Shown in pieces: positions 14,931 to 19,883 of a DNA stretch of 32,465 nucleotides. The position numbers were made by a program, and so were the translations under genes. The number at the start of each line of letters is the position of its first letter. Positions within the stretch are counted from its first letter, which is position 1. Origin of the DNA: Vicingaceae bacterium (GTDB lineage Bacteria > Bacteroidota > Bacteroidia > Flavobacteriales_E > Vicingaceae); contig JARGOE010000014.1 of the NCBI GenBank assembly GCA_029210015.1, positions 8,932 to 41,396 on the forward strand. The letters run 5' to 3'. The notes under the pieces were generated by a model. The model was given only the letters and a program-made list of their open reading frames with translations, was not told where the DNA came from and ran no database searches.

Positions 14931-14944
14931 TGATGTAAAATTAG

Positions 14945-14958
14945 TAAATTCGAATTTA
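14945..14958. promoter_or_regulatory. 14-bp perfect palindrome TAAATTCGAATTTA in a divergent intergenic region, candidate shared -7 region
   Basis: Reads TAAATTCG (TAnnTTCG) on both strands, between starts at 14930 (-) and 14976 (+). Confidence 0.4.
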
Positions 14959-14975
14959 TAAAAGGAAGAACGTTA

Positions 14976-15272
14976 ATGAGAAGGTTAAAGTATATAGTTT
15001 CAATATTGTTTATTGTGTTATCGGTTTCAGCTTTTGGTCAAGAAACTAAAATGGTAAAAAATCGAAAGAAGCAGTTAGAGAAACAAGAGAAGAATAAAGA
15101 GAAAGAAACAGAAAAATCTATTGATGAGGGGAAGAAACGCCACATGAATATTCAAACTAAGGCGGTAAAAAAACGAATGAAAAAACAAAAAAAGAAATCT
15201 ACAAAATTAAACAGACAGCGGGCTGGTAAAAAGAAATCATTTTTTGCTCGAATTTTTGGAGGGAAAGGATAA
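14976..15272 (+). CDS. Small exported, very Lys-rich basic protein of unknown function
   Basis: 98 aa; signal peptide MRRLKYIVSILFIVLSVSAFGQ, then a highly basic Lys/Arg-rich tail. Confidence 0.8.
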   Translation: MRRLKYIVSILFIVLSVSAFGQETKMVKNRKKQLEKQEKNKEKETEKSIDEGKKRHMNIQTKAVKKRMKKQKKKSTKLNRQRAGKKKSFFARIFGGKG

Positions 15273-16052
15273 TTGGCTAAAATTACCGCTATAATAGTTG
15301 ATGATGAAGAGCTAGCAAGAGAGAATTTGCAAATGCTTTTAGAAGAGTTTTGTCCTGAAGTAGAAGTAATTGGTAAAGGAGAAAATGTTGAGCAAGCAAG
15401 AGAATTAATTATAGAAAGAAAGCCCGAAGCTGTATTTTTAGATATCAGAATGCCAAGTGGTGAAGAAGGGCTAGAGTTGTTAGAAGATGCTAGGCTTGGA
15501 AATTTTCAAATAGTCTTTGTTACGGCATTTAAAGAGCATGCTATAAAAGCTTTTAATGTAAATTCTATCCATTACATTTTAAAACCGATAGATATTGATG
15601 ATTTAAAAGAGGCTGTTGTTAAACTTTTAAATTATAAAGAATTGTTTTTAAAAGATAATTCTAACCTTGAATCTTATTTAGAGTCTTTAAAAAACCTTTC
15701 GGAAACTATACACTATCAAAACGAGTCAACCAAAATTACTGTTGCACATAGTAAAGGGATTAAGATTATTGATGATAATACTATCCTTTATTTAGAAGGA
15801 GACGGTAATTGCACAAATATCCATTTTACTGATGGCACTTCTTTTTTTGATACACGAACGCTAAAGGTTTATGATAATATATTAAATGAAAATAAGTTTT
15901 ATCGTATCCATAAAAAGCACATCATTAATTTAGAATGTTTAACAGATTATATTAGTGATGATGGTAGCTATGCACAACTCCAAAATGGTGTTAAATTGCC
16001 CGTTGCTCGTTCCAGAATTTCCGATTTTGTGCGTACTCTTAAATCATTATAA
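15273..16052 (+). CDS. LytTR-family response regulator 1 (TTG start)
   Basis: Receiver: IIVDDEE, VFLDIRMP, FVTAF, LKPID. C-terminal LytTR DNA-binding domain: ILYLEGDGNCTNIHFTDG...FYRIHKKHIINL...LPVARSR. Confidence 0.93.
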   Translation: MAKITAIIVDDEELARENLQMLLEEFCPEVEVIGKGENVEQARELIIERKPEAVFLDIRMPSGEEGLELLEDARLGNFQIVFVTAFKEHAIKAFNVNSIHYILKPIDIDDLKEAVVKLLNYKELFLKDNSNLESYLESLKNLSETIHYQNESTKITVAHSKGIKIIDDNTILYLEGDGNCTNIHFTDGTSFFDTRTLKVYDNILNENKFYRIHKKHIINLECLTDYISDDGSYAQLQNGVKLPVARSRISDFVRTLKSL

Positions 16053-16063
16053 TAACGAGTTAC

Positions 16064-16094
16064 TACCGTTTAATTGCTCAGAGATACAGTTTAG
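16064..16094 (+). promoter_or_regulatory. Candidate LytTR-type operator: direct repeats TACCGTTTA / TACAGTTTA, 21-bp period
   Basis: 16065-16073 ACCGTTTAA and 16086-16094 ACAGTTTAG match [TA][AC][CA]GTTN[AG][TG] (second perfect, first one mismatch), separated by 12 bp. Confidence 0.55.
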
Positions 16095-16160
16095 TAGTTT
16101 AATAAAACCAATCGCTCTACTTTACGTAAATTTAAAACAGACTAACAAAAACTGTATATC

Positions 16161-16919
16161 ATGACTATTGACACCATTATAATTGACGATGAAGAGAATG
16201 CTCGTAGCAATCTTAAACTAATTTTAGATGAATTTTGCCCTACTATTAATGTTGTAGCTGAAGCTGGTTCCGCTGAAGAAGCTAGAGCATTGATTAACCA
16301 TCATCAACCTAATTTATTATTTTTAGATATAAATATGCCGAATGAAGATGGCTTTGAGTTACTAGAGTCATTAGAAGATAAAAATTTCTCTGTTATATTT
16401 ATTACGGCACATAATCAATTTGCACTAAAAGCACTGAAAGCTGGAGCAATTGATTATATCGAGAAGCCAATTGATATAGAAGATTTACAAGCAGCAATAA
16501 GCAAGGTTTCTGTTGATAATGCTGCTGGAGGAAATGTAGATTATAATATGATTAGAAACATTTTAAACGAGCATAAAAATGATAGTAAATCGGATATTAT
16601 AGCTGTGCCAACATTGAGTGGATATGAGATTATAAAAATTGAAGATATTGTTCATTTAGAGGCTGATGAGAGTTACACTAAAATATTTTTAACTAATGGT
16701 AAAAAAACTACAAGTAGTATGACTATTGCTAAGTACGAAAAAGTATTAAATGAAGATATATTTTTTAGAGTTCACAAATCTCATATTATTAACACACGCC
16801 ATCATTTAAAAGAATTTAATCGTCATGAGGGTAATGTTGCCATTATGGATAATGGTGAAGCAATACCTGTAGCAAGAAGAAAACTTTCTGGATTTATCAG
16901 TAAAATAAAAACATTCTAA
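16161..16919 (+). CDS. LytTR-family response regulator 2
   Basis: Receiver: IIIDDEE, LFLDINMP, FITAH, EKPID. LytTR: IVHLEADESYTKIFLTNGKK...FFRVHKSHIINTRH...IPVARRK. Confidence 0.94.
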   Translation: MTIDTIIIDDEENARSNLKLILDEFCPTINVVAEAGSAEEARALINHHQPNLLFLDINMPNEDGFELLESLEDKNFSVIFITAHNQFALKALKAGAIDYIEKPIDIEDLQAAISKVSVDNAAGGNVDYNMIRNILNEHKNDSKSDIIAVPTLSGYEIIKIEDIVHLEADESYTKIFLTNGKKTTSSMTIAKYEKVLNEDIFFRVHKSHIINTRHHLKEFNRHEGNVAIMDNGEAIPVARRKLSGFISKIKTF

Positions 16920-16928
16920 GATAGTTTA

Positions 16929-19883
16929 ATGCGAAAAATAATAGGGTTTTTTATGGTATTACTCTTATGGAGTAATGTCTTTTCACAGCAATATAATTTT
17001 GTAAACTACTCTATTGAAGAGGGTTTAGCTCAATCTCAAGTTAGAGCAATTTCTCAAGATATCACAGGTTATTTATGGATAGGTACTTTAGGAGGTCTAT
17101 CTAAATTTGATGGGATTAATTTTGAAAGTTTTTCTACTAATGATGGATTAATGGATAACCAGATTAATGCCATTTATACAGATGATAAAGGGAAAGTTTG
17201 GTTAGGAACGAATGGAGGCTTTTCTGTTTATGATGGGAATGCTTTTAAAAATTATTTCTTTAAAGATGAGTTATCTGAAAATTCTGTATTATCAATTACT
17301 AAAGATAGGTTTGGAAATATGTGGTTTGCTACTGATGGTGGTGGAATGGTTTATTTTAATTCTGAAAAGTTAAACTATTTAACCTTACCGAATGGAGTTG
17401 ATAATAACTATATTAGGCATGTAACTATTGATGATGACGGACTGTTGTGGTTAGCTACAAGGAATGGTGTTAGCTCTATTGATGCCGAGTTTAATATTAA
17501 AAGTAAAATTGACAGTATTAATGCTACACAAATATTAATTGATGGAGAAGTTGTTTGGTGCTCAACGTTTGGAGATGGGATGTTAAAATTGGAAAATGAT
17601 TCATGCGTAAAATTAAAAACTGAAAATGGATTGATAAGTGATCATATTAGAGCATTTACTAAGCGTAAAGATGGTTCTTATTGGTTTGTTTCAAAAAACG
17701 GTATTTCAAAGTATTTGAATGGACAGTTTAAAAACTTTACTACAAAAGATGGTTTAAGAGATAATAACATAAAATGTGCTACTGAAGATAGTGAAGGAAA
17801 TTTGTTTTTAGGTGCAGATGGAGGTGGGTTGATTAAGTTTACAAATGAAGATTTTGTAAGTTATACAAAAGAAGATGGTATAGGCAGTAATGTAGTAATG
17901 TCCATTTTGCAGGATCATCATACCAATATTTGGTTAGCTACTTATGGAGATGGAGTAGGTGTATTTACTAGTCATGGCTATGTACCTTTTACTACTGATG
18001 ATGGATTAGGGAATAATACTGCTTGGTGTAGCATTGAGTCAAAAGACCAACGTTATTGGGTAGGAACATCAAACGGTATTTCAGTTTTTAATGGTAATAA
18101 ATTCAAAACTTATAACACTAAAAATGGACTGAATGCTAAAAAAGTTTATGCCTTACAAGAAGATAATCACGGAAATATTTGGATAGGAACAAAAGAAGGA
18201 GTGTCTGTTTTAGATATTAAAACAGAACAAATTAAAAACTTAGGTATAGCTCGTAACATTAGAAGCATATTTATCGAGAATGATAACTATATCTGGTTTT
18301 GTTCATCAGATGGATTGTTTAAATATAATGTTCAAACTCAAAATTTCAAGGCTTTTACAGAGAGAGATGGCTTGCCTGATGCAAGTGTTATGAATATACT
18401 AAAAGATAAAAATGGAAAATATTGGGTGGGTACTTCCAGTGGGTTGGCAATATTAAATGATAATATAATTTCAAAAGTTATTGTTCCAGGAAATTACGCG
18501 TCTAATAACATTAATTTTTTAGAATTAGATAGCTATGAAAACTTGTGGATAGGAACAAATTTTGGATTATATAAATTAAATATTAAAAAACAGAAAAATT
18601 TTAAGCCTACAGATTTTATTAGATATTCAAACCTGGATGGTTTAAAGAGTTTGGAATGTAATCAGAATGCATCATTTATTGATAAAGAGAATAATTTATG
18701 GTTTGGTACAAGTTATGGTTTAATGAAGCATCAATTAAAACCGACTAACACTTCATTTTTTTTACCTAAGGTTCAATTAAAAGGAGTAAGATTATTTTTT
18801 GAGAAATATAATTATAAGAAATTTGCTAAAGGACTTATTGAAAACAGTAAACTGCCAAATGAGCTGGTTCTCCCTTATAATAAAAACCACTTAACATTCG
18901 ATTTTGTTGGTATCTTTCATACTAACCCTGATAAAGTAAAATACCGTTTTAAGTTAGATGGGTTTGATGATAATTGGCAGCCTTTAACTACTTCTAATTT
19001 TGTAACCTACTCCAATATTCCTTCAGGAGATTTTACTTTTATGCTTTCATCTACAACAGATTTATACAACTGGAGTCCACCAGTAAAGTTTTCATTTACA
19101 GTTAAGCCACCTTTTTGGTTAACCTGGTGGTTTTTCACTTTATGTATTATCGCTTTTTATGGAATTGGTTTTTTAATTTTATTGAGAATGAAAAAAAGAA
19201 AATTGGCAAAACAAGCTACAAGGTTATTAGAAGATAAAACTAAAATGCTAACTCTTGAGCAACAAGCTTTAAACGCAAGTATGAATAGGCATTTTATTTT
19301 TAATTCATTAAATTCTATACAATATTATATTAATAGGCAGGATAAAATTTCAGCTAACAAATACTTGTCAAGTTTTGCAAAATTAGTGCGTAAAAATCTA
19401 GATAGCTCTTTAGTACCTGAAATTTATTTAGATGATGAAATAGAGCGTATAAATTTATATTTGAAATTAGAACAAATGCGTTTTCAGGATAAATTTAATT
19501 ACAAGGTAAATGTTGACCCTGCTATAGAGCCTCAATCAATTAAAATCCCTTCAATGCTTTTGCAACCATTTATAGAAAATTCTATTTGGCATGGAATACT
19601 TCCTTCTCAAGAAAAGGGGAACATTACTGTAGATGTTAAAAAAGAAGGTGATAAGTTAATTATTAAAATGTTGGATGATGGAATTGGGATTGATGTAAGT
19701 ATGGCACAAAAAGAAGGTAAAAATCAATACCATGATTCTAAAGGAATGGAGTTAACAAAAGGGCGAATAAACTTAATTAGTAAAATTTCTAATAAAGATT
19801 GTGCAATAAAAGGACCTTATCAAGTTTACGATGAAAACAAGAATGTTTCAGGAACTGAAGTTTCTATAATTTTAACTTTATAA
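16929..19883 (+). CDS. Sensor histidine kinase: periplasmic two-component-regulator propeller repeats, Y_Y_Y-like domain, TM segment, LytS-type His_kinase
   Basis: Repeated (L)WIGT.GG(L)S.(F/Y)DG propeller motifs; PDKVKYRFKLDGFDDNWQPL; TM WWFFTLCIIAFYGIGFLILL; MNRHFIFNSLNSIQYYI H-box; PSMLLQPFIENSIWHGI N-box. Confidence 0.95.
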   Translation: MRKIIGFFMVLLLWSNVFSQQYNFVNYSIEEGLAQSQVRAISQDITGYLWIGTLGGLSKFDGINFESFSTNDGLMDNQINAIYTDDKGKVWLGTNGGFSVYDGNAFKNYFFKDELSENSVLSITKDRFGNMWFATDGGGMVYFNSEKLNYLTLPNGVDNNYIRHVTIDDDGLLWLATRNGVSSIDAEFNIKSKIDSINATQILIDGEVVWCSTFGDGMLKLENDSCVKLKTENGLISDHIRAFTKRKDGSYWFVSKNGISKYLNGQFKNFTTKDGLRDNNIKCATEDSEGNLFLGADGGGLIKFTNEDFVSYTKEDGIGSNVVMSILQDHHTNIWLATYGDGVGVFTSHGYVPFTTDDGLGNNTAWCSIESKDQRYWVGTSNGISVFNGNKFKTYNTKNGLNAKKVYALQEDNHGNIWIGTKEGVSVLDIKTEQIKNLGIARNIRSIFIENDNYIWFCSSDGLFKYNVQTQNFKAFTERDGLPDASVMNILKDKNGKYWVGTSSGLAILNDNIISKVIVPGNYASNNINFLELDSYENLWIGTNFGLYKLNIKKQKNFKPTDFIRYSNLDGLKSLECNQNASFIDKENNLWFGTSYGLMKHQLKPTNTSFFLPKVQLKGVRLFFEKYNYKKFAKGLIENSKLPNELVLPYNKNHLTFDFVGIFHTNPDKVKYRFKLDGFDDNWQPLTTSNFVTYSNIPSGDFTFMLSSTTDLYNWSPPVKFSFTVKPPFWLTWWFFTLCIIAFYGIGFLILLRMKKRKLAKQATRLLEDKTKMLTLEQQALNASMNRHFIFNSLNSIQYYINRQDKISANKYLSSFAKLVRKNLDSSLVPEIYLDDEIERINLYLKLEQMRFQDKFNYKVNVDPAIEPQSIKIPSMLLQPFIENSIWHGILPSQEKGNITVDVKKEGDKLIIKMLDDGIGIDVSMAQKEGKNQYHDSKGMELTKGRINLISKISNKDCAIKGPYQVYDENKNVSGTEVSIILTL

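Follow-up and report, generated by a model that had tools for sequence, protein, structure and literature searches.

A candidate activator-type LytTR operator and promoter conserved between two tandem response regulator genes in Vicingaceae

Does the short gap between two tandem LytTR response regulator genes carry an operator and a promoter that serve the second regulator and the kinase behind it? The question is raised by a locus of a Vicingaceae bacterium represented by a draft genome that is 82% complete. The stretch of DNA analyzed, referred to here as the window, comprises 32,465 nt (GCA_029210015.1, contig JARGOE010000014.1, positions 8,932–41,396, forward strand), and the four genes described next lie on its plus strand. 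RR1 (15273..16052, TTG start) and RR2 (16161..16919) each encode a response regulator with a receiver and a LytTR domain (Pfam PF00072 and PF04397) and are separated by 108 bp (16053–16160). RR2, the first gene behind the putative operator, is followed by a sensor histidine kinase gene (16929..19883; Pfam domains Reg_prop propeller, Y_Y_Y, and His_kinase, PF06580). Upstream of RR1 lies orf98 (14976..15272). It is the first gene of the syntenic block, and its product is small, very basic, and resembles a signal peptide at its N-terminus. The gene order orf140 (divergent)-orf98-RR1-gap-RR2-kinase was identical in all eight relatives examined, with orf98 upstream of RR1 and the kinase directly 3' of RR2 in 8/8 loci; genes for PF04397 regulators adjoin the gap. 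NIF3 and the zinc-ribbon gene followed the kinase in seven of the eight, and neither appeared in the part extracted from the remaining genome (G043). In the divergent gap between orf140 and orf98 (14931–14975 in the window; about 42–57 bp across loci L179–L186), a 17-bp element, TAAAATTAGTAAATTCG, was identical in the window and all eight relatives examined; it is probably a divergent promoter common to orf140 and orf98-RR1. No LytTR repeats were detected by a matrix scan of this conserved promoter region upstream of orf98-RR1.

Within the RR1-RR2 gap, TACCGTTTA (16064–16072) and TACAGTTTA (16085–16093) form direct repeats with a period of 21 bp. Compared with the published LytTR consensus [TA][AC][CA]GTTN[AG][TG], the 9-mer ACCGTTTAA deviates at one position and ACAGTTTAG matches throughout, and 12 bp separate the two. 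The repeats, their coordinates, period, and gap, and the mismatch counts had all been given in the first-pass annotation and were confirmed in the sequence. Taken by itself, the window gives a modest signal. When the 108-bp gap was dinucleotide-shuffled, 4.5% of the shuffled sequences held a consensus pair with at most one mismatch per site and a 12–13-bp gap, and 1.4% held some direct repeat matching at 8/9 positions with a 21-bp period; the whole window has 18 such consensus pairs.

Conservation was then assessed with RR2 orthologs that have RR1 in front. This set covered 16 species, 13 of the genus of the window (window included) and three of another genus in the same family; the named near relatives are Flavobacteriales metagenome-assembled genomes, and the RR2 orthologs of the 15 other species showed 66–86% identity. 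One genome also carried a second RR2 copy (L016, on contig C133 of G001) that was 75% identical, lacked the first 31 residues, and had no operator in front; it may be a truncated duplicate, or the assembly may have produced it. The pattern CTACCRTTTAAT-N9-CTACYRTTNRAT-AGTT was recognizable at exactly 21 bp in all 16 species, the weakest being that of G003 (L014). The first-pass annotation had made its reading depend on the 21-bp-period repeats being kept in relatives with the gene pair, and it withstood this comparison. Half-site 1 (CTACCGTTTAAT, 16063..16074, plus strand), which is of LytTR type, showed a mean pairwise identity of 0.82 over the 16 gaps against a random expectation of 0.30. 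Half-site 2 (ATACAGTTTAGT, 16084..16095, plus strand), exactly 21 bp farther on and likewise conserved in 16/16, reached 0.67, and the AGTT extension behind it (16096..16099, plus strand) reached 0.73. The half-sites fit the published consensus, and the relatives share ACCRTTTAA, in which the last position is A and not the published T or G. Half-site 2 of the window is among the weaker ones (8.1 bits), with ATACAG in place of CTACCR. The 12-bp spacer, present in 16/16 species, falls within the range of known LytTR sites, which have 9–11-bp repeats and 11–13-bp spacers (PMC4847170). These results indicate that the repeats are real despite the modest signal in the window, because they are conserved in 16/16 species and the genomes show no further copy that stands out.

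A weight matrix built from half-site 1 alone was used to search 200 offsets, and peaks appeared at +21 (z 6.5) and −21 (z 5.0); as the species are related, these z values characterize the pattern and should not be read as probabilities. The upstream peak corresponds to a third direct half-site, TAAC[CT]GTTTAAT, located exactly 21 bp before half-site 1 in 14/16 species, which the first-pass annotation had missed. The RR1 stop codon forms its first three bases in ten species. At three loci (L003, L148, and L149), RR1 ends farther upstream and the third half-site is still recognizable, which means that the stop codon does not account for it. The species of the window and G006 are without it, and the coding end of RR1 fills the register. 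In the window, this register (16042..16053, plus strand) reads AATCATTATAAT and is degenerate, with a score of −6.7. The third copy that the first-pass annotation had proposed was a different one, inverted and just before the ATG, where it might block initiation. The sequence is there: AAACTGTAT (16149..16157, minus strand) is the exact reverse complement of 16084–16092 and forms a perfect 9-bp inverted repeat with it. The operator role, however, was rejected, and we place this copy outside the operator. It is unconserved in the relatives, scores −6.5 bits on the conserved half-site weight matrix, and is expected by chance, since a perfect 9-bp inverted repeat occurred in 26% of shuffles.

Downstream of the repeats, a box with the pattern TAnnTTTA was found in all 16 species, at 63 bp (one species), 64 bp (nine species), or 65 bp (six species) from half-site 1. 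In the window, this is TAAATTTA (16127..16134, plus strand), the predicted −7 box of an rr2-kinase promoter of the Bacteroidota sigma-A type (consensus TAnnTTTG). It resembles the −7 element TAnnTTTG, which lies at −12 to −5 at sigma-A promoters of Flavobacterium psychrophilum (PMC9723704). The stretch from half-site 2 to the box is near random, with an identity of 0.353 versus 0.302 expected, and no −33 element was conserved among the 16 orthologous gaps. A missing −33 element is common at activator-dependent promoters. The predicted transcript start is near 16139, so that the two repeats would be centered at about −60, and in the window the box follows the second ACC-equivalent at a distance of 41 bp. 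The core box thus stands at a fixed distance from the repeats, as for an activator site at a sigma-A promoter. The position of the repeats upstream of the box argues for activation, and the main reason for favoring it is that the layout resembles two proven activator layouts, those of AgrA and of autoregulated LytTR promoters. The earlier proposal that a LytTR operator gives rr2-kinase its own promoter is upheld as far as the conserved repeats and the box at a fixed distance are concerned, but not for the inverted copy. No terminator was found in the RR1-RR2 gap; read-through from RR1 to RR2 is therefore possible, and the predicted promoter may add to it rather than replace it.

We examined whether the operator serves other genes by genome-wide scans of 46 family genomes, which were pattern searches and did not use the weight matrix; the order-level search covered the same 46 genomes. 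With at most two mismatches over both half-sites, only the orthologous locus was found in the genus, and one background-level match was found elsewhere in the 46 family genomes. Matches with three mismatches outside the locus were about as frequent as those of a reversed-pattern control. No good site was present in G007, a 97% complete congener that lacks the locus, or in the other genomes without the locus. In matrix scans, neither the region upstream of orf98-RR1 nor the surroundings of the genome's other LytTR genes showed a further copy. The genome regulon anticipated in the first-pass annotation was accordingly not borne out, as the genus- and family-wide pattern scans gave no excess beyond the orthologous site. 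With only one standout site per genome, the operator seems to serve its own operon alone; a weaker regulon with different spacing may exist. The motif was also looked for at distant LytTR homologs (L081–L120) and was not seen there, and its transfer to them was rejected. Another Bacteroidota LytTR clade among them (L086–L102) has a long conserved element, TTACTCCCTATTaACAAACACTATTTTACTCAAACGGT...GTTAAATAAATG, about 60–115 bases upstream of the LytTR match and in front of a TTAGnTTAGC-like box, which is possibly that clade's own operator.

Several known systems share features with this locus. The HdrRM/BrsRM promoters (PMC6193735) likewise have 9-bp direct repeats of the form ACC..TTA with a 12-bp spacer upstream of their own operon. 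In autoregulated promoters of the HdrR type, about 42 bp lie between the start of the second repeat and the −10 element (9+10+6+17; PMC6193735), close to the 41 bp to the −7 box in the window. Those promoters differ in having only two half-sites, a −35 box, and a membrane inhibitor as the partner instead of a kinase. The present locus falls outside the LytTR Regulatory System (HdrRM/BrsRM), because RR1 and RR2 have receivers and their partner is a histidine kinase. AgrA at agr P2 and P3 is, like RR1 and RR2, a response regulator with a LytTR domain; its direct pair is centered at about −60 relative to both promoters, and its own operon includes a kinase (PMC4227749). However, agr is a staphylococcal quorum-peptide system, whereas here a Reg_prop/Y_Y_Y kinase is found with two adjacent regulators. 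PlnC and PlnD of Lactobacillus plantarum (TACGTTAAT-N12-TACGTTAAT; PMC2714321) match in the 21-bp period, a similar half-site, and two adjacent regulators with a kinase, but they control several operons, whereas here one standout site per genome lies between the regulator genes. The predicted Bacteroides LytTR promoters (TCCGGTATTCA-N11-ACCGGAAATCA and TATCTTTG; PMC6193735) come from the same phylum and belong to the same promoter class, with a TAnnTTTG-type box; they differ from the window in repeat sequence, a 22-bp period, and a longer distance to the box.

The repeats are a genuine conserved site and almost certainly a docking place for a LytTR-type regulator that would switch on rr2-kinase. 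We consider it likely that 16063–16134 constitutes an activator-type LytTR operator with its promoter, most likely exerting positive feedback on rr2-kinase; this reading joins the directly observed sequence, conservation, spacing, and restriction to the locus to a binder, an activation, and a feedback that we infer. A dimer of a LytTR regulator (RR2, RR1, or both) would bind both direct half-sites, which lie two helical turns (21 bp) apart on the same DNA face and are centered near −60. The predicted promoter has a good −7 box but lacks a conserved −33 element; the bound regulator would assist RNA polymerase there, and the transcript would encode RR2 and the Reg_prop/Y_Y_Y kinase. Active regulator would thereby raise its own level and that of the kinase, separately from the promoter in front of orf98-RR1.

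The binder may be either protein, as the sequence gives no preference for RR1 or RR2; the two genes adjoin the site and neither is damaged. Both proteins retain the LytTR signature FhRhHRS (FFRVHKS in RR2 and FYRIHKK in RR1; FFRCHNS in AgrA). An attempt to choose between them by way of solved LytTR structures was given up: the sole solved domain found, 3d6w, has no known site, and no contact map is therefore transferable. The position before rr2-kinase favors RR2 feedback. If RR1, made from the promoter upstream of orf98, were instead to bind the site and switch on rr2-kinase, RR2 would act elsewhere. We regard such cross-regulation as fairly unlikely: RR1 is always directly upstream, its separate and strongly conserved promoter region (TAAAATTAGTAAATTCG) lacks LytTR repeats, and its signature residues are kept as well as those of RR2, but LytTR regulators commonly control the operon that they head (PMC6193735). 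RR1 and RR2 could also share the site in opposite or cooperative roles, through PlnC/PlnD-like competition or mixed occupancy of three half-sites, which we judge rather improbable. Two tandem LytTR regulators do surround one operator with three half-sites in most species, and PlnC and PlnD set a precedent in which two adjacent LytTR regulators, an activator and a repressor, act with opposite effects on shared repeats of 21-bp period (PMC2714321). Although the spacing of repeats and box fits activation, RR1 or RR2 may act here as a repressor, as PlnD does. On the other hand, the LytTR domains of RR1 and RR2 are only 37% identical, compared with 59% for the whole PlnC and PlnD proteins, and the species of the window manages with two half-sites.

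Two further explanations dispense with a protein site. The conserved block lies between co-directional, possibly cotranscribed genes, as would suit a transcribed RNA element such as a leader, an attenuator, or a terminator. This is very improbable, given that RNAalifold predicts no pair, that neither an Rfam match nor a terminator was found, and that direct-repeat conservation at 21 bp is typical of a dimer on DNA. That the repeats arose by chance in A+T-rich DNA has a negligible probability: the frequency of such pairs in gap shuffles would allow it, but conservation in 16 species amid a near-random neighborhood refutes it.

The activator-type operator would be a known kind of feedback device, placed in a group of Bacteroidota with very few described sites of this type. 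Among Bacteroidota LytTR operators in the literature, we found predictions for two Bacteroides sites and none that had been tested by experiment; this locus offers a well-supported motif, its spacing to a −7 box, and a testable gene pair. The form with three sites between adjacent regulators allows one to ask cleanly if a single operator serves paralogous LytTR regulators jointly. A quite doubtful conjecture is that the ancestral operator was an array of three half-sites at a 21-bp pitch starting in the RR1 stop codon, which the two LytTR regulators would jointly occupy to set the level of RR2 and the kinase, and which would have been reduced to two sites in the window. The three-half-site form is the part of this locus most worth an experiment.
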